In this document: in pieces, positions 41,533 to 50,455 of the stretch | Layout: every line of letters starts with the position of its first letter | Numbering within the stretch: position 1 is the first letter of the stretch | From: Chitinophagaceae bacterium | GTDB taxonomy: Bacteria; Bacteroidota; Bacteroidia; Chitinophagales; Chitinophagaceae | Direction of reading: 5' to 3' | Length of the DNA stretch: 64,000 bases | NCBI GenBank assembly: GCA_019745155.1 | Contig: JAIETM010000003.1 | Span: 124,001 to 188,000 of the forward strand | Position numbers and translations under genes: made by a program | The notes under the pieces: model-generated | What the model saw: only the letters and a program-made list of their open reading frames with translations | What the model was told of the DNA's origin: nothing | Databases searched by the model: none

Positions 41533-41805
41533 ATGACCGAACCAACAATTGCACAAAAATTTCCCGCAGCTGTAAAAGTAGAGAAAGGCAAAACTTATGC
41601 CTGGTGTACCTGCGGCCTCAGTGAGAAACAGCCTTTATGCGATGGCAAACACAAAACCTTGGCCCGCGAAGAAAATGGTGAAACCATTATGCCTTTCAAG
41701 AGTTTAAAGTTTACAGCAGAAGAAGATGGTGAAGTATGGCTCTGCCAATGTAAGCAAACCAAGAACCCGCCTTTCTGTGATGGCAGTCATATGATTCTAG
41801 ATTAG
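41533..41805 (+). CDS. double CDGSH iron-sulfur protein
   Basis: 90 aa with two CDGSH-type [2Fe-2S] motifs: CTCGLSEKQPLCDGKHK and CQCKQTKNPPFCDGSHM, each with three Cys and one His. Such small proteins (mitoNEET-like) act in redox or Fe-S handling. It starts 17 nt after meaB. Its stop overlaps the stop of the convergent gene by 3 bases. Confidence 0.93.
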   Translation: MTEPTIAQKFPAAVKVEKGKTYAWCTCGLSEKQPLCDGKHKTLAREENGETIMPFKSLKFTAEEDGEVWLCQCKQTKNPPFCDGSHMILD

Positions 41806-42695
41806 AAATAATTTAGCTCTATCACTTTATTTGAATAATTAGACCTTATTTCCTTTATTAAATCAGTTCTGATCTTTTCCATTCTCAATCTATCTTTCAT
41901 TATTTTTTTACTGATATCAATATTTTGATCCATGAGTTTATACTCGTTGTACCAAGTACGAACCCTACGATAAGTGTATAGAGAAGGATCTATATTTGGA
42001 AAATTTTTATTTCTTGTTTGTGTAGCTAAATAAACCCCTACACAATAAAATTTGTCTCCAAGTGATGCTTCAGGTTTATTGGCATAAAGACAGAAGAATT
42101 TAGGATCAGATGCCAAATTGAGGATATTTGCATTTGCTATTTTTGAAAAATCAAAAACTTCACTTATATAATATTCATTCTCAAGAACTTCTTTACCATC
42201 AATAAATTTAGAACTACCCAAATAATCAACTACGAAAACGTAAATACTATTTTCATCTCCTTTTGGATTTTTCTTTAGTGTATTCTTGAATTTAGATTGA
42301 TACTCTTTAATCATTAAATCCTTTTTTTTACGTGCAACTTCTATTTCTAACTCAATGACTCTTTTTTGAATATCATATTCATCTTGACACTTTTTTAGTT
42401 TATTTTCATATTCTTTTTCAATTCTTGACTCCTCCTCTGATAATATTCTTTGACAAATTGTACAACCTTCTTTACGATGAGCTTTACACTGAGGAGACAC
42501 CCTAGCCGCATTTGACTCAACCCATATACTTTTTGAATATAAATTTTCTAACGCTTTTTCTTTCTGATCATGTGCTTCCTTAGTACAATTATTTTTTATA
42601 TAATAAATTTTCTCAAATCGCTCGCTAAATGTTTGTGCACTTAACTCAAGACTTAGTACACTAATAAAGAAAAATGAGAGAATACTTTTAAACAT
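41802..42695 (-). CDS. exported coiled-coil protein of unknown function (AT-rich block)
   Basis: Not recognised. 297 aa with signal peptide MFKSILSFFFISVLSLELSA. Residues about 75-140 are a charged coiled coil (EEESRIEKEYENKLKKCQDE and following), preceded by cysteines in CKAHRKEGCTIC that could bind metal or form disulfides. The C-terminal half is mixed alpha/beta. The gene is visibly AT-rich with A/T-ending codons, unlike its left neighbours. It follows the lipoprotein gene by about 23 nt. Confidence 0.78.
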   Translation of the reverse strand: MFKSILSFFFISVLSLELSAQTFSERFEKIYYIKNNCTKEAHDQKEKALENLYSKSIWVESNAARVSPQCKAHRKEGCTICQRILSEEESRIEKEYENKLKKCQDEYDIQKRVIELEIEVARKKKDLMIKEYQSKFKNTLKKNPKGDENSIYVFVVDYLGSSKFIDGKEVLENEYYISEVFDFSKIANANILNLASDPKFFCLYANKPEASLGDKFYCVGVYLATQTRNKNFPNIDPSLYTYRRVRTWYNEYKLMDQNIDISKKIMKDRLRMEKIRTDLIKEIRSNYSNKVIELNYF

Positions 42696-42718
42696 AAAAT
42701 CAGTAATAAGATTAAAGA

Positions 42719-43318
42719 CTATGGTACAACTGGAGGATTTATTGTTTGAAAAAAATATTCACCAAAACGAACTTCTAAGTTTGTAGATGTGATTTTCAAC
42801 CAACCATAAACATCCTCTCTTTTTGAGTTTTGGAATCGAAGGGCATAATAAAAAGTACCGGGTATCCTATTCGACCAACTAGTTTGACCTCGTGGTTTAA
42901 CAAACTCGACTGATCCTGAGGTTGTGGTTAAAAAAGTCCAAGGAACTACCGCCCCACTATTATAACGAGCTGCCAAATTTCCGTTATTCTCCCTTATAAA
43001 GAATCCAAATCCTGGATTACCAGAAGATGTAATACTTATACCAATAGATGCAATAGAATCACTCACAAATAGCCTTTTCCCAAAGCCGGTTGCCGCAATA
43101 AGGCTCACCCCTTCAATTGAAAAGCTCCTACTTGTTTGTCTGAAGCTATTGAATTCATTACTAGTAAAAACCAAATCTAAACTTCCCTTTACTTGACTTG
43201 ATATTCTTCCCTCAACAAGTGTTTCCTTATTACAAGAAGCAATTACAAATAAAGTAATTGTGAATAAGATAAACTTAAGTACTCCAAAAACCACTTTTTT
43301 AATGCCCAAAAAGTCCAT
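42719..43318 (-). CDS. putative lipoprotein of unknown function (AT-rich block)
   Basis: Not recognised. 199 aa. N-terminal hydrophobic signal ends in FVIASC (lipobox), then NKETLVEGRISSQ. The rest is beta-rich with several Ser/Thr/Gly turns (SGNPGFGFFIREN, YALRFQNSKREDVYGWLKIT). Its start overlaps the end of the upstream 643-aa gene by 20 bases, so the two are translated together. Confidence 0.75.
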   Translation of the reverse strand: MDFLGIKKVVFGVLKFILFTITLFVIASCNKETLVEGRISSQVKGSLDLVFTSNEFNSFRQTSRSFSIEGVSLIAATGFGKRLFVSDSIASIGISITSSGNPGFGFFIRENNGNLAARYNSGAVVPWTFLTTTSGSVEFVKPRGQTSWSNRIPGTFYYALRFQNSKREDVYGWLKITSTNLEVRFGEYFFQTINPPVVP

Positions 43319-45230
43319 TTTTCAAAATTGTAAGGTTAAAGAAATTTTTATTTGAATGGGAAAAAGATGAAGGATACTTAATACTGCCGGCGGCAGCATA
43401 ATTAACACTATAAGAAAAATCAACAGTTACAAAACTGAAAAGATTCGCCTGAATATTCAACACGCCAAGTGGCTTAGTTGAGGGTTTAAAAAAACTTGGC
43501 TTTTCAAAAAAATAACCTGCTTTAATTGTAGTTTCCTTATCTCCATCACTCAAGTCCAACAGTGCCCCTGCTCCATATCTTAAAACCGAATAATCGTAAG
43601 AGGACTCTAAGACGAGATTACTAAAACCTAATCCTAAATTGGCAGTGCTAGCATCAAAATCATGCTCCCAAGTACCACTTCGCTTTTCCCAGCCAAATTC
43701 AAGATAACCTTTAAACTTAGAATCACGCTTCTTGCCTGCACGTACCTCAAAATTTCCTCCATAAACAGTATGATCTCCAGTAACACCTGCTGAAAGCGCA
43801 TTTAAACCATAAATGAACCTCGGTGTTACATTGATATTAAAAAATTTATCGTTGAAAAAAGTAGCTTGTAATGCCAAATTAAATGTAGGATGCGATGTTT
43901 TCTCAATAGAAGTCTTTGAAGTAGAACCACTATATTTTGTGTTTGCTATCAAAGGTATTTCCATCATACCCAAACCTAGAAAGTATCTAACCACAATAGG
44001 ATCATCCGAGTATTCATCCTGCATCAAAGAGCCCAATGCCAATACAGAAGCAGCCGCAGCGATAAATGCATCATCCTCTGCCTTATCTAATTTTTGAACA
44101 TTTTCTACTCGTTTTCTTGATAGTTCGTTTTGAATAGAATCGTTTACTCTTTTTTCCTCCGCTTTTCTTTTTCTTTCCTCAGCCTCCGCCTTAGCGAAAT
44201 CATATTTCTCAGGTTCAACTTCATTGCCGACCTTACTGTTTGAACTAGATTGAGAAGTATTTACTTCTGCACCATTATTTGTGCTGTTGTGATTATTGAC
44301 TTGAGGCTTTCTATTTTGAATATCGGTGTTTGTATTTTCTGTGTTTATTTCATCAGGATATTCAAACTCTTCAAATGATATTGACATTGATTTTATTCTA
44401 CTAGTTCCAATTTTTTTGCCGTTTTCCATAACTGGCTTTCCCTCACACAATTCTTCATCAGCAGAACTAATTAAACCCGTAGCATCGGTTAAAAAGTTTA
44501 CATTAAAAGTTCCTAAATCAGCCTTTATTAGTGTTTCATTAGGCTTTAAAATGAAATCTATTTTTGAAGTTTCCGTATTCCCACAAATTAAATTGGCAAC
44601 TAATTTCCCCTTTATTTTAATTCTTTTAGAAGTATAATTTTTAATGTTAGCTGCAAAAAATTGCTGCCCAAGCCCCCAAGATAATCTAGCAGCAAACAAT
44701 TGATAACTAATTACGTTTTTATACATTGTTTCTTGGCCATATCTTATCCATCTATTCTTACTGGTAGTTTTTTCTCCGTCTTGGTTTTCTTCATTTTTTT
44801 TATTTTGAAAAAAATATACAGTTAACCTTCCCCCTTTGGGGGTATTAGTAAAAACAAGGTAGTCCGTCCTAACTTCTCCACTTTTGATATAAGAAAACGC
44901 TCCAGTTGACCTTGCTTGTTCAAAGCTTTCACCATAATTCCCAACCTTGTAAGAAATAGAAATTTCTTCCTTAGAATTATTTTTAACCTCTAAAGCCCAA
45001 ACATGTGGAGGTCGGCCTTGTCTTTTTGAGCTTTGATTCTCATACTTATAACCCACTCTAAATGAGAGATAAGGAAAACCATTAATAGGTTGCCAACTAC
45101 CCCAATAAGGATTGGAATTGTATGCTGTTACATCTTGTGAATATATATAACCTAATTTTAAGGTTAAGCCTAACATTAATAAAACTAATCTTCCAGCTTT
45201 CATAATTTTAAACAATAAAGTATTTCTCAA
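43299..45230 (-). CDS. three-part exported protein with C-terminal beta-barrel-like region (643 aa)
   Basis: Not recognised as a named family. Signal peptide MRNTLLFKIMKAGRLVLLML followed by LGLTLKLGYIYSQ. Residues about 30-300 form a beta-rich domain. About 325-385 is a highly charged coiled coil (AKAEAEERKRKAEEKRVNDS), followed by a short hydrophobic AAAASVLALGSLM stretch. About 410-643 has aromatic alternating strands typical of an outer-membrane barrel (YLEFGWEKRSGTWEHDFDAS, FVTVDFSYSVNYAAAGSIKY) ending in LKNGLFGH. This suggests an outer-membrane protein with an external or periplasmic N-domain. It heads the three-gene minus-strand unit. Confidence 0.8.
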   Translation of the reverse strand: MRNTLLFKIMKAGRLVLLMLGLTLKLGYIYSQDVTAYNSNPYWGSWQPINGFPYLSFRVGYKYENQSSKRQGRPPHVWALEVKNNSKEEISISYKVGNYGESFEQARSTGAFSYIKSGEVRTDYLVFTNTPKGGRLTVYFFQNKKNEENQDGEKTTSKNRWIRYGQETMYKNVISYQLFAARLSWGLGQQFFAANIKNYTSKRIKIKGKLVANLICGNTETSKIDFILKPNETLIKADLGTFNVNFLTDATGLISSADEELCEGKPVMENGKKIGTSRIKSMSISFEEFEYPDEINTENTNTDIQNRKPQVNNHNSTNNGAEVNTSQSSSNSKVGNEVEPEKYDFAKAEAEERKRKAEEKRVNDSIQNELSRKRVENVQKLDKAEDDAFIAAAASVLALGSLMQDEYSDDPIVVRYFLGLGMMEIPLIANTKYSGSTSKTSIEKTSHPTFNLALQATFFNDKFFNINVTPRFIYGLNALSAGVTGDHTVYGGNFEVRAGKKRDSKFKGYLEFGWEKRSGTWEHDFDASTANLGLGFSNLVLESSYDYSVLRYGAGALLDLSDGDKETTIKAGYFFEKPSFFKPSTKPLGVLNIQANLFSFVTVDFSYSVNYAAAGSIKYPSSFSHSNKNFFNLTILKNGLFGH

Positions 45231-45380
45231 AAATTTAAACCTAACTCAACTACAAATAGGTAGTCCGTTACCCAAAGACTATTTAGCTACTTCCAAGCAT
45301 TTAGAAGAACTCTGTGTTAGTATGCCGAATAAGCTAGAATGAAGCTCAGTCACTCTTTTATATGAAAAAAATAGATTTCT

Positions 45381-45417
45381 ACGTGTTTTTATAATGTATT
45401 AGTATGTAAAAACACGT
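45381..45417. repeat. 11-bp perfect inverted repeat upstream of TCS module 1
   Basis: ACGTGTTTTTA (45381-45391) and TAAAAACACGT (45407-45417), spacer 15 nt, in the gap between the divergent 643-aa gene and the membrane-protein gene at 45454. Candidate regulator operator. Confidence 0.5.
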
Positions 45418-45435
45418 ACTCATTTTTAGTGAGTA
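45417..45435. repeat. second inverted repeat next to the promoter of TCS module 1
   Basis: TACTCA (45417-45422) and TGAGTA (45430-45435), 7-nt spacer. It abuts the longer repeat and lies just before the -7-like element. Confidence 0.4.
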
Positions 45436-45439
45436 GTAT

Positions 45440-45447
45440 TATCTTTA
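45440..45447 (+). promoter_or_regulatory. -7-like element TATCTTTA of TCS module 1
   Basis: One mismatch to TAnnTTTG, 6 nt before the ATG at 45454, directly downstream of the two inverted repeats. Confidence 0.45.
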
Positions 45448-45453
45448 GAATAT

Positions 45454-46137
45454 ATGGAAGAGTTATTATTTAAGCATCGCGACTCCATAGAGATACTTAC
45501 AGAATTAATAACACTATGTGTTTTACTATGTGCGCGTAAATGTATACATCCTTTTTTCTGGAATTGCGTCTTTACAAACATTACTTGTTCGACAATCTTC
45601 GCTTTATTCAAAAATACATTTATAAATAATCCTCAAATTGGCACTATTGCAATAAGACTTATAATTACCATTGATATCTTTATCACTCTACTATGTGGAG
45701 CTTTTTTACTTAGATATTACTTTAAAAATATCTGGCCAATATTAATACCAATTGTATACTTTCTTTTACAAATAGCAAACTTGTTTACATATTCTATTCC
45801 ATTATCTATTAACTCTTCTATATCAGAATGCTTGCTGATAATATATACGCTAGCAATTTTCTTTTTTTTGCTAAAAAATCCTCGAAAGGAACTCATCAAA
45901 ACAATTGAATTTAAACTGTTTATTGTTTTTATTGCAATACACTTTATATTTTCTGTACTTAATTTTCATTTATATTTTCTAGATTATTCAAAAAGAGAAG
46001 TAAAAATAGCACTCAACTTAATCTATGACTATTTATGGCCCATAGGCTTACTTTGCATTTCTTACATGGCAATTAGAACCGCACTTAAAGTAAGACATAA
46101 AAAGGGGATTGTTGATCCTCTTACAAACCTTTCATAG
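45454..46137 (+). CDS. polytopic membrane protein of TCS module 1 (227 aa)
   Basis: Not recognised. About seven predicted membrane helices (e.g. LIITIDIFITLLCGAFLLRY, WPILIPIVYFLLQIANLFTY, LFIVFIAIHFIFSVLNFHLY, YLWPIGLLCISYMAIRTALK) and short loops. There is no transporter or catalytic motif. It is AT-rich. It lies 89 nt upstream of a histidine kinase that lacks a sensory domain, and a protein of similar size and topology precedes the second kinase at 48408. A role as membrane sensor for the kinase is inferred from this repeated layout. Confidence 0.75.
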   Translation: MEELLFKHRDSIEILTELITLCVLLCARKCIHPFFWNCVFTNITCSTIFALFKNTFINNPQIGTIAIRLIITIDIFITLLCGAFLLRYYFKNIWPILIPIVYFLLQIANLFTYSIPLSINSSISECLLIIYTLAIFFFLLKNPRKELIKTIEFKLFIVFIAIHFIFSVLNFHLYFLDYSKREVKIALNLIYDYLWPIGLLCISYMAIRTALKVRHKKGIVDPLTNLS

Positions 46138-46226
46138 TAAGTTAAAATACGTTTCTATCTATCAAAAACTCAGTTTAGATTTACATACTCGCACTTTCAC
46201 GCAAATGTTAGGCGAATCTTTTATGC

Positions 46227-47000
46227 ATGTATAGAATCGAATCTATAATCGAAATAATACTAGTAACAATAAGTGTTTTCTTACCCGTTTTCTTTCTAAT
46301 AGGGTTATTATTTTCTTATTATAAACAATTACAAAAACAACAACAATTAAAGAACGAATTCGAAAAGGAGTTATTAAAAGTTGAGGCTGAAGTCAAAGAG
46401 AAGACATTACAAATATTAGCAATTGAGATACATGATAATGTGGGTCAGATTTTAAGCTTAGCAAAAGCGACACTAGGCAGCATAACATTATCAAATGTAG
46501 AAAGCACTAATAGTAAAATCTTAAACGCCCAACAACTTATTGAGAAGTCACTTAATGATTTAAGGCAAATCAGCAGAACATTACAAGGTCAAGACATATT
46601 GGAAAAAGGAATTGAAGATGCAGTTATTAAAGAGATTGATTATCTAAAAAGAGAGTACAACATTCATATTGAATTTGAATTTGATTCTAAAATAAATCTG
46701 TACAAAGAGCCACAGAAAGAATTATTTGTATTTAGGATTATGCAAGAAGCAATTTCAAATATTATAAAACACTCAGAAGCCACTTCAGTTATAATTCAAT
46801 TTAAATTAATTAACGGCATTTTAAATATAAAATTGATAGACAACGGGAAGGGTTTCTCTGATTCGCTTGTTTCAAATACGGGATTAGGTATTAATAACAT
46901 GCGCAAACGCGCGTCTTACCTGAATGGACACCTATCAATCAAATCTGAATTAGAAAAGGGAACTTCTATAGAAATTAATATACCCCATGCAACAACTTAA
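46227..47000 (+). CDS. histidine kinase, NarX/NreB-like (HisKA_3), TCS module 1
   Basis: 257 aa. One N-terminal membrane helix (about 7-30) and a short coiled coil join directly to the dimerisation/phosphoacceptor helix with His69 (LQILAIEIHDNVGQILSLAK). The HATPase_c domain follows, with QEAISNIIKHSEAT (N box), LIDNGKGFSDSLVSNTGLGI (G1) and MRKRASYLNGHLSIKSELEK. There is no periplasmic or PAS sensory domain, so the input must come from another protein. It overlaps the response regulator by 14 bases. Confidence 0.9.
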   Translation: MYRIESIIEIILVTISVFLPVFFLIGLLFSYYKQLQKQQQLKNEFEKELLKVEAEVKEKTLQILAIEIHDNVGQILSLAKATLGSITLSNVESTNSKILNAQQLIEKSLNDLRQISRTLQGQDILEKGIEDAVIKEIDYLKREYNIHIEFEFDSKINLYKEPQKELFVFRIMQEAISNIIKHSEATSVIIQFKLINGILNIKLIDNGKGFSDSLVSNTGLGINNMRKRASYLNGHLSIKSELEKGTSIEINIPHATT

Positions 47001-47646
47001 GTCACAGAGCATTAACATAGCCATCGCCGACGATCATTCCTTATTCAGATCAGGTATTGTAAGCCTACTTGAAGAATTTGGCGATATACATGTTGAGTTT
47101 GAAGCTAATAATGGGAAAGAATTACAAGAAAAAATCGCCAGACACCCTCAAATCAGTGTGATTTTGATGGATATAAATATGCCTATAGTAAATGGCTTTT
47201 CCGCCACAACATGGATAAAGGAAAACTACCCCGAAATTTCTGTTTTAGCACTAAGCATGCATAACGAAGACGAAGCAATTATTAAAATGATTAAGGCTGG
47301 TGCAAAAGGGTATATCTTAAAAGAGTCTAATGCCAAGGAATTGCATAAAGCAATTCATGATATTTATGTACATGGCTTTTACAGCAACGAGTATGTATCA
47401 GGAAAACTATTACGTTCATTTCAAAATGAAAATGAAAAAAAACAGAAACCTTTATTCTCACAAAAAGAGATAAGATTCATGCAACTAAGTGCTTCAGAAT
47501 TAACCTATAAAGAGATTGCCAAAGAAATGGGTCTGGCAGATAGATCCGCTGATAATTATAGACAGGCATTATTTGAAAGACTAGGTATTAAAACCCGTGT
47601 AGGGCTAGTGCTATATGCTATCAAGGAAGGAATTATTAAAGTTTAA
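46987..47646 (+). CDS. response regulator, NarL/FixJ family, TCS module 1
   Basis: 219 aa. Receiver domain with acidic pair DD (residues 15-16, IAIADDHSLF), phosphoacceptor Asp62 (VILMDINMPIVNG), LALSMHNEDE and the Lys in YILKESNAKEL. The C-terminal LuxR-type helix-turn-helix is about 150-215 (SASELTYKEIAKEMGLADRS, ERLGIKTRVGLVLYAIKEG). It forms a pair with the overlapping kinase. Confidence 0.93.
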   Translation: MQQLKSQSINIAIADDHSLFRSGIVSLLEEFGDIHVEFEANNGKELQEKIARHPQISVILMDINMPIVNGFSATTWIKENYPEISVLALSMHNEDEAIIKMIKAGAKGYILKESNAKELHKAIHDIYVHGFYSNEYVSGKLLRSFQNENEKKQKPLFSQKEIRFMQLSASELTYKEIAKEMGLADRSADNYRQALFERLGIKTRVGLVLYAIKEGIIKV

Positions 47647-47680
47647 CCGGCTCCAATTGGAACCGGTTTATTGTTTGAAG
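47645..47680 (+). terminator. probable terminator after TCS module 1
   Basis: Stem AACCGG/CCGGTT (47645-47650 and 47663-47668) with inner TCCA/TGGA pairs, then TTTATTGTTTG. The left arm overlaps the stop codon of the regulator gene. Confidence 0.5.
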
Positions 47681-47702
47681 CCCCCAATGTTATTATTGAT
47701 TA

Positions 47703-47760
47703 GGATTCAAGAGCGCGGCCCTACCCCCGTTTGACCGCGCCGGCTTTCGCCTTTGAATCC
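47703..47760. repeat. 58-nt three-way-junction palindromic element
   Basis: The outer 8-bp stem GGATTCAA/TTGAATCC encloses two hairpins: GCGCGG/CCGCGC with a 16-nt loop, and a small one that on the minus strand reads GGC-GAAA-GCC with a GNRA tetraloop. It is GC-rich in an AT-rich gap. No ORF-like conservation is evident. It could be a structured RNA (minus strand more likely) or a REP-like mobile palindrome. Confidence 0.55.
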
Positions 47761-47800
47761 ATCACTGAGAAAACTCCTCAGGGTCGTTATCGTGAGTGAT
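47761..47800. repeat. adjoining inverted repeat of the palindromic element
   Basis: ATCACT (47761-47766) pairs with AGTGAT (47795-47800), enclosing a competing hairpin CTGAG/CTCAG (47765-47781). It directly abuts the 58-nt element, so both may be one unit. Confidence 0.5.
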
Positions 47801-47814
47801 TTTGCAATCAGAAT

Positions 47815-47835
47815 TTGTACAACAAATATGTACAA
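47815..47835. repeat. 7-bp inverted repeat TTGTACA/TGTACAA
   Basis: TTGTACA (47815-47821) and TGTACAA (47829-47835), 7-nt spacer. Candidate operator upstream of TCS module 2. Confidence 0.4.
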
Positions 47836-47852
47836 GGCAGGAATATCAAACA

Positions 47853-47890
47853 ATGGGAAATTTCCCATTTTTTTACGGGAAATTTCCCAT
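47853..47890. repeat. two tandem palindromes GGGAAATTTCCC
   Basis: ATGGGAAATTTCCCAT (47853-47868) is a perfect 16-bp palindrome. A second GGGAAATTTCCC lies at 47877-47888, 22 bp downstream centre to centre, i.e. about two helical turns. Located 45-80 bp before the first gene of TCS module 2. Confidence 0.6.
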
Positions 47891-47934
47891 AGGCAAAGCC
47901 AGTAAAAGAACGGAGATTGCCAAAAAACCCTCTT

Positions 47935-48408
47935 ATGCGCAGACTCTCCCCAATACTCATGCTTTTGGCATTTTTTGGTATTCACTACGGCTTAACCAGT
48001 TTTATTGAACGCCCTCAACACACAAGCGAAAAAGTAAGTCCAATTAGCCCTGAAGCAGCAGATCGTTATATTCAAAATTTTCAACAATCCGCAGCCTATA
48101 AAGCCATGAATGAAGTTGATAAAGATGCTACCAAAGCCATTTATTTTGATGCTGCCACCATTAACAATATGGCTGCTTTGGTACAATCCGGTCAAATTGA
48201 TGGCATGTGGGCTTATTTTGCCAAGTATGATTCATCCAATAAAGATCCCAAACATGTTTACAATAATCAATACACCATTATTTTGTGGGGCGCCAAACAA
48301 CCTGTAGAAGGAAAATCATTGGGCAAAACCATTGTGCGCAATCAACAAGGAGAAGCAACCAATATTGAGAACTACGGCAAACCCTGTCCGCCATTTATTT
48401 GTAACTAA
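47935..48408 (+). CDS. exported small protein of TCS module 2 (157 aa)
   Basis: Not recognised. The N-terminal membrane anchor or signal (about 4-22, LSPILMLLAFFGIHYGLT) is followed by a soluble domain: PEAADRYIQNFQQSAAYKAM, KAIYFDAATINNMAALVQSG, IDGMWAYFAKYDSS and YTIILWGAKQP. It ends KPCPPFICN with two cysteines in a CPPFIC motif. ATG 47935 gives a clean anchor. Its stop overlaps the next gene's start (TAATG), so it is coupled to the membrane protein of the module. Confidence 0.75.
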   Translation: MRRLSPILMLLAFFGIHYGLTSFIERPQHTSEKVSPISPEAADRYIQNFQQSAAYKAMNEVDKDATKAIYFDAATINNMAALVQSGQIDGMWAYFAKYDSSNKDPKHVYNNQYTIILWGAKQPVEGKSLGKTIVRNQQGEATNIENYGKPCPPFICN

Positions 48409-49052
48409 TGCTACCAGATTATTCTCAAGCACTACATTTTCTCGAAATCAGCGCGCTGATTGTTGGACTGATTCGCTGGAAGCAAATACAACCAACTGCT
48501 TTTCGCTGGCTCATTCTATTGCTATTCCTAACAGTCTTGAACGAAACCATTTTAACAGACCATCGCATTCCTGCTTTAAGGCTCAATAACAATTTACTGT
48601 ACAATGTTTTTTCGCTGATAGATATGTGTGTGATTCAATACATGCTTTTTCGAATTGAGGCTTTTCAAAAAATCAAACGCATTATCTTACTTTCCATTGC
48701 CGTTAACCTTATTGCAAGTATTGTTGAATTACAATTTTATTCTGGCTGGTTACAGTTTCATACGCAGAGCTTTCGCCTGCTCAATATCAGCAATATGCTG
48801 ATTTGCTTGTTTTACTTCAGAAAAGTGATTGTAGAGCACAAAATCTCCTTAAGAAAAGACACCATTTTCATTTTCTGTACAGGACTGTTCATGTACCACG
48901 CACTGCTCTTCATCAACTTTACCACAGTGAGTATCCCAAGCTATTGGCAACTCCCTTCTGCTATGCTCATCTTTCAACTCCTGCACTTATCTGCCAACCT
49001 CATCTATTACACATCCATCATTATGCTCTTTTTGATGTCCAGAAAATCGTAA
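48408..49052 (+). CDS. polytopic membrane protein of TCS module 2 (214 aa)
   Basis: Not recognised. About six or seven membrane helices (WLILLLFLTVLNETILT, IILLSIAVNLIASIVELQFY, ISNMLICLFYFRKVIV, TIFIFCTGLFMYHALLFINF, LIYYTSIIMLFLMSRK). Similar in size, topology and position to the protein at 45454. It lies between an exported protein and a kinase without a sensor domain (9-nt gap to the kinase). The likely role is signal input for the kinase, inferred from layout only. Confidence 0.75.
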   Translation: MLPDYSQALHFLEISALIVGLIRWKQIQPTAFRWLILLLFLTVLNETILTDHRIPALRLNNNLLYNVFSLIDMCVIQYMLFRIEAFQKIKRIILLSIAVNLIASIVELQFYSGWLQFHTQSFRLLNISNMLICLFYFRKVIVEHKISLRKDTIFIFCTGLFMYHALLFINFTTVSIPSYWQLPSAMLIFQLLHLSANLIYYTSIIMLFLMSRKS

Positions 49053-49061
49053 AGTTGCAGT

Positions 49062-49805
49062 ATGGGCATTTTACCACAGATCGTAGGGGCTATTGGTTTC
49101 CTAATCATTTTTTTAGGATTTGTGCTCTTGCTAATTATTTCTACTAGCAAGAAAAAACAAACAGAATTAACGCAAGCCTACCAAACACAGGTAGCCACCA
49201 TCCGACATGAAGTGCAGGAACAAACTTATCAGGCTATTGCGATGGAATTGCACGACAATGTTGGCCAATTACTCAGCAGTAGCAAAATGATGATCAATGC
49301 TGCAATGCTGCAGTCGCCTGAAACAGCCCAATCACTAGATGAAGCGCAAGCTACCTTAGGCAAAGCCATTCAGGAAGTGCGCAGCCTCAGCAAAATGATG
49401 AATGCAAAATGGCTGGAACAATTCAGTCTTAGAGAAAACTTGCAACAGGAAATTTCCAGACTTCAGCATGTGGTAGCAGTACAAGCAGATCTTGATGCAC
49501 TTGAAACAATCAGTTTACACAATGACCAGCAACTTATCATTTTCCGTGTAGCACAGGAAGCCATGCAGAATGCTATGAAGCATGCAGCAGCTACCGTGAT
49601 GACGCTCGAATGCATGGAAAAAACAGGCTCTTTGGTCATCCGTATTGCAGACAATGGGAAAGGAATGACAGATTCCGTAAAATCCGAAACAGGAAGTGGT
49701 TTATTACACATGCGTGAAAGAATTGCTTTGTTAAAAGGCAATATTCAATGGCAGAACAATGTACCTTCGGGTACGATTGTGGAGTTAGACATCCCCCTGC
49801 GTTGA
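49062..49805 (+). CDS. histidine kinase, HisKA_3 type, TCS module 2
   Basis: 247 aa. One N-terminal membrane helix (about 7-27), a short coil, then the phosphoacceptor helix with His64 (YQAIAMELHDNVGQLLSSSK). The HATPase_c domain follows, with VAQEAMQNAMKHAAATVMTL, IADNGKGMTDSVKSETGSGL and MRERIALLKGNIQWQNNVPS. No separate sensory domain. It has the same architecture as the kinase at 46227. The regulator gene starts 2 nt after its stop. Confidence 0.92.
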   Translation: MGILPQIVGAIGFLIIFLGFVLLLIISTSKKKQTELTQAYQTQVATIRHEVQEQTYQAIAMELHDNVGQLLSSSKMMINAAMLQSPETAQSLDEAQATLGKAIQEVRSLSKMMNAKWLEQFSLRENLQQEISRLQHVVAVQADLDALETISLHNDQQLIIFRVAQEAMQNAMKHAAATVMTLECMEKTGSLVIRIADNGKGMTDSVKSETGSGLLHMRERIALLKGNIQWQNNVPSGTIVELDIPLR

Positions 49806-49807
49806 CC

Positions 49808-50455
49808 ATGAAACCAAAGAAATCTACTATCCGTATCGGTATTGCAGACGATCACCAGCTTTTTGTTAAATCTGTCTCCTCTTTACTTAGTGCTATTGGT
49901 GGCTTTGAAGTGGTATTGGAAGCAGCTAACGGCAAAGACTTACTTCAACAACTCAGTCGAACCAAAGATCTTCCTGATATCATTTTACTGGATGTGAATA
50001 TGCCCATCATGAATGGGATGGAAACAGCTGCAGCATTGCTCAAAGACTATCCCTTGTTAAAACTTGTGGCATTGAGCATGAATACAGATGATATGAGTCT
50101 GATTGGTATGATTCGCAATGGCTGTTGTTCTTATTTAATGAAAGATATCAGTCCGGCTGAATTGCAAAAAGCCTTACACGAAGTACACGAAAAAGGCTAT
50201 TACAACACGGATACCATGCAGCTGAACATGCATAAGCTGATTACTCAAAACACGAATGATCTTTTCTCTGAAAAAGAGTTACAGTTTATTCGAATGGCTT
50301 GCAGCGATGATACATATCGGGAGATTGCTGTAAAAATGAGCGTATCTGAACGTTCGGTAGATATGTACCGGGAAAAAGTATTTGAGAAGCTGGGTGTTAA
50401 TACCCGCACAGGTATGGCTTTAGAAGCCGTAAGAAGAAAAATCTACTCGCTTTAA
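49808..50455 (+). CDS. response regulator, NarL/FixJ family, TCS module 2
   Basis: 215 aa. Receiver with IGIADDHQLFVKS (acidic pocket), Asp62 in ILLDVNMPIMNGME, LALSMNTDDM and the Lys in YLMKDISPAEL. LuxR-type HTH at the end (MACSDDTYREIAVKMSVSER, SVDMYREKVFEKLGVNTRTG). The start MKPKKSTIRIGIADDH at 49808 follows the kinase stop directly. Paralogue of the regulator at 46987. Confidence 0.93.
   Translation: MKPKKSTIRIGIADDHQLFVKSVSSLLSAIGGFEVVLEAANGKDLLQQLSRTKDLPDIILLDVNMPIMNGMETAAALLKDYPLLKLVALSMNTDDMSLIGMIRNGCCSYLMKDISPAELQKALHEVHEKGYYNTDTMQLNMHKLITQNTNDLFSEKELQFIRMACSDDTYREIAVKMSVSERSVDMYREKVFEKLGVNTRTGMALEAVRRKIYSL

Follow-up and report, generated by a model that had tools for sequence, protein, structure and literature searches.

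The window analyzed here is a 64,000-nucleotide stretch of the genome of a Chitinophagaceae bacterium (assembly GCA_019745155.1, contig JAIETM010000003.1, positions 124,001-188,000, forward strand), and it harbors two successive sets of signal transduction genes. The second set, together with the gene that precedes it (ex-mp2-hk2-rr2, 47935-50455), forms one instance of a conserved module, widespread in Bacteroidota, that consists of a small protein with a conserved tail (EX), a membrane protein (MP), a sensor-less histidine kinase (HK) and a response regulator (RR). The first set, mp1-hk1-rr1, has no EX. In window coordinates, and with ‘TM’ and ‘7TM’ for transmembrane and seven-transmembrane, the genes are as follows.

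47935-48408, + strand: ex, 157 amino acids from an ATG, or 163 from an alternative TTG start at 47917
48370-48405, + strand: codons of the conserved C-terminal ex tail NYGKPCPPFICN, assigned from the alignment and from tail statistics
48408-49052, + strand: mp2, 214 amino acids; predicted 7TM receptor-like membrane protein of the MP family, its ATG overlapping the ex stop codon
49062-49805, + strand: hk2, 247 amino acids; sensor-less HisKA_3 histidine kinase with one TM helix
49808-50455, + strand: rr2, 215 amino acids, in a frame open from 49748; NarL/LuxR-type response regulator
45454-46137, + strand: mp1, 227 amino acids; membrane protein with seven hydropathy peaks at the MP position of the EX-less set, without convincing relatives
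46227-47000, + strand: hk1, 257 amino acids; sensor-less HisKA_3 kinase within the clade of module kinases
46987-47646, + strand: rr1, 219 amino acids; NarL/LuxR-type response regulator

The open reading frames called by a first-pass annotation of this DNA are all present, and its description of both kinases as proteins with one membrane helix and no sensory domain holds: hk1 and hk2 each match HisKA_3 and HATPase_c above the curated Pfam cut-offs, and each displays a single hydrophobic peak, at its N-terminal start. The two regulators match Response_reg and GerE, also above cut-off. The membrane proteins had been described as having six to seven helices and no known motif, which agrees with the hydropathy profiles (seven peaks in mp1, six in mp2) and with the finding that mp1, mp2 and ex reach no Pfam family at its curated cut-off. 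When the seven genes were compared with NCBIfam, nothing was found for mp1 or ex, mp2 gave a single match (E 0.04), and the kinase and regulator families matched the hk and rr genes below their cut-offs. The reported contrast in base composition between the two sets is likewise real, with a GC content at third codon positions of 0.23-0.30 in mp1-hk1-rr1 and 0.34-0.47 in ex and the second set.

Conservation of the EX-MP-HK-RR module

A search with mp2 alone, which is free of the conditioning that comes with the MP and EX profiles (both built from module members), found relatives in 28 of 98 genomes from the window's bacterial family. Of the 30 loci examined from this search, 28 have EX immediately before MP and a kinase immediately after it, and a regulator is present in 25; of the two exceptions, one (L025) holds no module and the other (L028) has, before MP, a 79-amino-acid reading frame that the EX profiles did not recognize and that ends in a CPCPPC tail. 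The EX profile was positive in 73 of 98 genomes of the family. At the loci anchored on EX, where MP was called by profile or by at least five hydropathy peaks, MP came next in 72 of 74 family loci, followed by a kinase in 67 and a regulator in 56, and the corresponding counts for 63 loci from named genomes (29 in Chitinophagaceae, the others in further Bacteroidota groups or genera) were 57, 53 and 51. A phylum-wide draw yielded EX in 44 of 247 genomes; of its 30 loci, MP came next in all 30 and a kinase in 24, and a regulator was seen in 0, the flanks being mostly too short for regulators.

When the MP profile was used instead, matches were obtained in 122 of 395 genomes of the class (with at most seven candidates scored per genome). 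Among the 118 MP genes in 110 loci, a count that includes weak and partial ones, a kinase came next in 103 and a recognized EX came before in 101. Six further MP genes are preceded by an unrecognized reading frame with PP or CP..C close to its C-terminus, some of them carrying tails such as FATPCPPLCN; the frame at L348 appears unrelated. The co-occurrence of the membrane protein with HisKA_3 kinases across Bacteroidota, which the first-pass annotation had singled out as a check, is thus found for the MP family, and the ‘coupled exported protein’ that it placed before the second set proves to be an equally constant part of the module.

The departures from the standard order at EX-anchored loci comprise contig ends, modules in which the regulator gene comes first, tandem MP genes, and gaps or overlaps outside the rule applied. 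The order RR-EX-MP-HK occurs in five modules and MP-HK-RR-EX at L127; other reading frames separate EX from MP at L100 and L166, and at L117 and L080 the regulator is on the opposite strand or was not seen. Three consecutive MP genes are present at L327 (G258:C1:2383816-2386104), and several other loci hold two. The genome of the window contains a second complete module, at G000:C2:242154 (L062), with an EX that has no signal.

A search of open-licence papers found no description of an EX-MP-HK-RR module. EX and MP are seemingly two undescribed families, and the module seemingly a multi-component variant of two-component signaling.

The EX tail, the MP bundle and the upstream palindromes

EX proteins are built from a variable domain with a GxRxYFG core and a C-terminal tail with the consensus [YL]-[NDE]-x-G-x-[PL]-C-P-P-x-C. 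In 213 tails aligned on an anchor proline (which is invariant by construction), a cysteine precedes that proline in 191, a second proline follows it in 126, a cysteine is found at +3 in 168, and asparagine, aspartate or glutamate occupies -6 in 190. A simple hydropathy rule divides 172 distinct EX into 132 without a signal or N-terminal helix, 20 that are lipoprotein-like and 20 with an N-terminal hydrophobic segment, the last being the type of the window's ex, in which the full tail is present. The cysteine pair is found in 147 of the 172. Inspection by eye of the 25 tails outside the searched motif revealed 15 without either cysteine (mostly keeping an NxG..P(P) core), five with CPP and no second cysteine, two with a CxPPC variant and three fragments; a metal- or redox-only role of the CPPxC motif, which was also considered, is weakened by the EX that lack the pair. 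The short conserved tail sits behind variable linkers, and some loci have N-terminal parts that the profile did not recognize. Four loci (L107, L112, L012 and L020) encode long EX (287-332 amino acids), apparently with two EX-type domains and one tail. No Pfam family covers EX (41 members compared), structure searches with Foldseek and VIA gave nothing above Z 2.3 or below E 0.17, and a sequence search of the PDB gave no credible match.

The MP model was made from the family member at L149, to which mp2 (row 2 of its alignment) is 21% identical, and it consists of seven helices with a pLDDT of 93. An excess of lysine and arginine on the presumed inner loops in 112 of 116 MP indicates that the N-terminus lies outside and the C-terminus inside (‘N-out/C-in’). 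The best 50 of 506 Foldseek matches (E up to 10) were G-protein-coupled receptors (GPCRs) and one rhodopsin, at E 0.0075-0.33, with no match at E 0.001 or less. VIA-align placed 925 of 1000 chains at Z 8 or more, and the 50 chains listed (Z 12.0-13.3, root-mean-square deviation 3.8-5.0 over 195-218 residues) were almost without exception GPCRs or rhodopsins, a designed GPCR-like fold among them. Because helical bundles can reach Z 13 without kinship, according to the tool's own note, and because GPCRs are abundant in the PDB, a similar fold is claimed here and homology is not: by this model, MP probably adopts a seven-helix, GPCR- or rhodopsin-like fold with an N-out/C-in topology.

The most conserved positions across the MP family are E45 (TM2), F155-W156 (TM6) and N197-xxx-Y201 (TM7). 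The NPxxY motif of GPCRs has a spacing similar to the last of these; an argument for GPCR homology from E45 and N197xxxY201 was set aside, since the spacing may be due to chance. Pfam returned no family for mp1 and mp2 at E up to 1, and only one member's weak match to Acyl_transf_3 for 56 aligned MP at E up to 0.01, with no match to a GPCR or rhodopsin family; a PDB sequence search gave nothing credible (best a sodium pump at E 0.021 and a GPCR-like chain at E 0.36). There is no lysine in TM7 of the modeled MP or in the matching segment of mp2, and hence no retinal-binding lysine.

Upstream of ex, two features (neither assigned to a strand) stand out.

47855-47866, no strand: palindrome GGGAAATTTCCC, first of a pair; putative operator
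47877-47888, no strand: palindrome GGGAAATTTCCC, second of the pair, 22 bp further; putative operator

Both copies are exact, and the same pair is found in a sister species. The genome contains 14 exact GGGAAATTTCCC sites, against 0.16 expected from composition and 0 for the reversed control; they include one second 22-bp pair, and (with genes labeled by eye) several lie upstream of exported or lipoprotein-like genes and one between a fourth short kinase-regulator pair and a TetR-like gene. Canonical ex genes are preceded by arrays of ACGGT half-sites, with ACGGTTTT in 42 of 66 regions compared to 0.6 expected, at least two ACGGT in 66 of 87 upstream regions, and 125 spacings of 22-25 bp. Other modules display different palindromes at similar spacing. 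In three sets, repeats 21-25 bp apart numbered 419, 115 and 110, against means of 36, 22 and 22 for the other 5-bp bins, and at least three such repeats are present in 70 of 243 module upstream regions.

Several smaller observations concern the same elements. The fourth short kinase and its regulator, at G000:C2:110362 (L091, L362), have no adjoining MP, and the GGGAAATTTCCC site lies upstream of them. An identical stretch, AGTCAACCCGTTAAACAACGGTATTTTAATGGGAAATTTCCC, which combines both types of palindrome and may be a repeated element, occurs at three places in the genome (L364, L366 and L368). A short direct repeat, AATTTGTACAA / AATATGTACAA, is located at 47812-47835, upstream of the palindrome pair.

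A proposed pathway and its rivals

Indications of how the parts might act on one another come from their divergence. Across 111 complete modules, the partial correlations of distances are 0.60 for EX-MP, 0.30 for MP-HK and 0.70 for HK-RR, and for the pairs that are not neighbors 0.145 (EX-HK), 0.10 (MP-RR) and 0.036 (EX-RR); the three neighboring pairs are the top ones in 54 canonical modules and in 62 others as well. The gene distances fit a chain EX-MP-HK-RR, part of which the linkage of neighboring genes could explain.

Direct coupling analysis with 116-162 modules is too noisy for contacts, and with 213 modules only the spatial pattern is informative. In the latter, the top 20 couplings between the EX tail and MP (with MP residues 69, 61, 66, 1, 52, 164, 73, 186, 128, 122, 172, 170, 137, 206, 192 and 11) have a mean depth of +0.48, which corresponds to the outer half of MP; this depth was reached by one of 3000 random sets of 14 kinase columns and by none of 12 tail permutations. 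Nine analysis settings gave 0.40-0.48, a version based on mutual information gave 0.39 (matched by 10 of 3000 controls), and canonical and other modules taken separately gave 0.25 and 0.37. For the TM helix of the kinase, 12 of the top 30 couplings to MP fall on TM6, which has 21 of the 210 columns; pairs between the MP C-terminus and the kinase N-terminus were left unused because overlapping reading frames probably explain them.

The module and its conservation, the 7TM model, the chain-like co-divergence and the arrays of palindromes, all computed here, are consistent with a four-component pathway, to which a probability of roughly 55% is assigned, and for which we infer that the EX tail touches MP, that MP drives the kinase and that the regulator binds the palindromes. 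EX, MP, kinase and regulator would act in gene order. The outer half of the MP bundle would contain a cavity that the C-terminal tail of EX occupies or can be drawn out of, which would make the tail an intrinsic ligand or gate of the receptor. A change in occupancy would be passed within the membrane, probably via TM6, to the single helix of the kinase, which would phosphorylate the NarL-type regulator. The regulator would in turn bind tandem palindromes, spaced by about 22 bp, upstream of ex and other genes, resulting in autoregulation and in the control of a target set that includes exported proteins; mp1-hk1-rr1 would be an EX-less descendant, probably controlling the divergent genes on its own segment. 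The first-pass annotation had proposed a multi-part system with the polytopic protein as its sensor: that core idea is supported by conservation for the second set, in which MP would be the sensor. The wider generalization, that Bacteroidota possess a large family of receptors with a GPCR fold, split from their kinases, with the EX tail in the outer cavity and with an operator code of their own, as bacterial counterparts of a tethered-peptide receptor, is tentative and on balance doubtful.

Beyond the linkage just mentioned, a number of observations weigh against the four-component pathway. The main doubt concerns the location of EX, since an outside site for the tail is unexplained in the 132 EX that have no export signal. 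Signal-bearing modules ought to show the outer bias most clearly, yet 61 of them give only 0.13, against 0.34 for 152 without a signal; the bias drops to 0.18 in the top 40 tail-MP couplings, and the depth test was itself prompted by a previous run that used some of these data. Coupling strength is not special (top z 6.4 for the tail and MP, 7.1 for the tail-HK kinase control), and the single top score was beaten by one of the 12 tail permutations. In 116 modules, the whole of EX against MP gave a depth of 0.26 for the 20 best couplings and 0.05 for the 50 best, the MP-RR control also pointed outward (0.19 in its top 50), and EX-RR couplings scored equally high. Couplings between the kinase helix and TM6 have no orientation trend (r 0.08), and the five regulator-first modules, few as they are, show no chain (EX-MP partial correlation 0.00). 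At L157 and L159, EX and MP are present with no kinase next to them (the 705-amino-acid product after MP at L157 presumably resembles FeoB, by reading of its sequence); EX and MP may work without a kinase there, or the kinase may have been lost. The fold model of EX is uncertain (pLDDT 76), and the rates of co-occurrence are partly conditioned because both profiles came from module members. Finally, part of the 14-site count may reflect repeats, since the sites are only partly independent (one repeated 42-base stretch accounts for three, and two pairs sit in duplicated surroundings), and at least three repeats at 21-25 bp are also found in 23 of the 213 upstream regions that served as controls at the same loci.

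The kinases of LiaFSR and VraTSR also have no large sensor domain, and VraTSR likewise combines a polytopic accessory protein with a kinase and a regulator. As described in PMC3543457, LiaFSR shares with the module a polytopic accessory protein (LiaF, an inhibitor), a kinase and a regulator in the same gene order. This order favors a control of the LiaF type, a rather unlikely alternative in which MP would be a polytopic kinase inhibitor that senses envelope stress, and EX a target or feedback protein whose tail serves folding, metal binding or a disulfide; the occurrence of EX both with and without an export signal and the cysteine pair in 147 of 172 EX point the same way. However, the 25 EX that miss the motif, 15 of them without both cysteines, argue against a role confined to metal binding or a disulfide, EX accompanies MP almost as constantly as the kinase does and has its strongest co-divergence with MP, and there is no LiaF-type match in Pfam. 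The module also differs from LiaFSR and VraTSR in its MP with seven predicted helices and no LiaF-type domain, in its extra EX gene and in its one-helix kinase.

Less probable again is that EX is a cytoplasmic coupling or feedback protein at the inner face, the covariation with the outer half of MP being an artefact. The 132 EX without an export signal are what this would lead one to expect, as are a coupling no stronger than the kinase control and a weak bias among signal-bearing EX, but the same family contains 20 lipoprotein-like and 20 hydrophobic-segment EX, including that of the window with its full tail, and the outer bias is rare in controls. Improbable, finally, is a precursor whose tail is cleaved and released as a peptide signal, with MP as an AgrB-like processing or export protein or as the peptide's receptor: the short tail behind variable linkers (and, in places, unrecognized N-terminal parts) would suit it, as would the lack of a signal peptide in most EX if MP moves the tail outwards, yet no protease-like residue set is conspicuous among the most conserved MP positions (E45, F155, W156, N197 and Y201) and there is no AgrB match in Pfam, the lipoprotein-like EX require no exporter, and the core of the tail is common across the phylum whereas pheromones diversify.

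For the four-component pathway, further comparisons are instructive. MP resembles GPCRs and microbial rhodopsins in its predicted seven-helix fold over nearly its whole length (Z 12-13) and its N-out/C-in topology, and differs from them in having no Pfam sequence match and no TM7 lysine, and in its output through a histidine kinase. In HbpS-SenS-SenR, a small extra protein acts on a kinase-regulator pair, as EX might; HbpS belongs to another family, and that system, unlike the module, has no 7TM protein in between. Receptor kinases of the 7TMR-DISM and LytS types, such as BtsS, share with MP seven helices, a periplasmic N-terminus and kinase output, whereas the module has its receptor and kinase in separate genes and a dedicated partner protein, EX; neither the window proteins nor the MP family match 7TMR-DISM or 5TM-5TMR_LYT in Pfam. 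BtsS has its pyruvate-critical residues at the periplasmic side of three of its helices (PMC10653868), and the loss of retinal from rhodopsins has been proposed as a route to bacterial 7TM receptors (PMC4608122). In organization the module comes closest to LiaFSR, and in receptor shape to bacterial 7TM kinases such as BtsS.

The significance of the module lies in a candidate class-wide receptor family for many sensor-less HisKA_3 kinases, accompanied by a second family as yet without a name, EX, whose tail lends itself to testing, and by candidate operators and targets in the same genome. To our knowledge, the inputs of such kinases in Bacteroidota are mostly unknown. If the tail does bind the 7TM cavity, the module would be an example from bacteria of a 7TM receptor whose ligand is an intrinsic protein and whose kinase is a separate one, and it would inform how 7TM folds signal without G proteins.

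The EX-less first set and its low-GC segment

The set mp1-hk1-rr1 lies in a stretch of different composition, for which two further features were recorded.

41784-47644, no strand: accessory segment of 5.9 kb, low in GC and missing from the sister species (G066)
45380-45418, no strand: inverted repeat TACGTGTTTTTA-15-TAAAAACACGTA, between the divergent halves of the segment; putative operator

The two sets had been described as tandem paralogous modules, with one of them possibly acquired. Their kinases and regulators are indeed paralogous (hk1 and hk2 are 31.5% identical, E 2e-40; rr1 and rr2 38%, E 2e-57), but the description does not extend to the membrane proteins. No sequence similarity was found between mp1 and mp2 (best local match E 1.2), and comparison of mp1 with the MP family gave a hidden Markov model E of 0.86 and an hhalign probability of 1.1, or 0.036 and 4.6 in a second run; kinship of mp1 with that family, tried in three ways, was not demonstrated. 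In 294 genomes of the bacterial family, the sole match to mp1 outside its own genome covers 46 residues (E 8.5e-4, G023), and neither of the other two genomes of the genus contains mp1. No EX was found beside it either: the + strand has three reading frames of at least 20 amino acids that overlap 45150-45520, namely mp1 itself and two short ones (27 and 35 amino acids) that are not EX-like.

The kinase hk1 clusters with kinases of other modules and not with hk2. It falls in a group of 91 module kinases (support 0.943), apart from the eight other HisKA_3 kinases of the genome that were tested and from 26 further module kinases, and it is nearest to five kinases whose EX tails have no cysteine pair (support 0.81); the groups closest to it in the tree consist of module kinases throughout. 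In 395 genomes of the phylum, with at most six candidates scored per genome, hk1 has a single relative at E 1e-45 or better, which is part of a complete EX-MP-HK-RR module, and of 253 records from a plasmid search none covers 80% of hk1. From this and from the sister species, the first set is probably an acquired, EX-less derivative and not a tandem copy of the second.

The suggestion that one set had been acquired is supported for the first by the sister species, in which flanks 93% and 91.5% identical to those of the window join within about 25 bases at the place of 41784-47644. The absence of mp1 from both other genomes of the genus, together with composition (GC 32% over 41600-47650), favors a gain of the segment here over a loss in G066, if not with certainty. 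The segment carries three genes on the - strand, with mp1-hk1-rr1 divergent on the + strand. The three, at 41802-45230, encode an exported-looking protein of 297 amino acids, a lipoprotein-like one of 199 and a second exported-looking one of 643, and they are possible targets of rr1.

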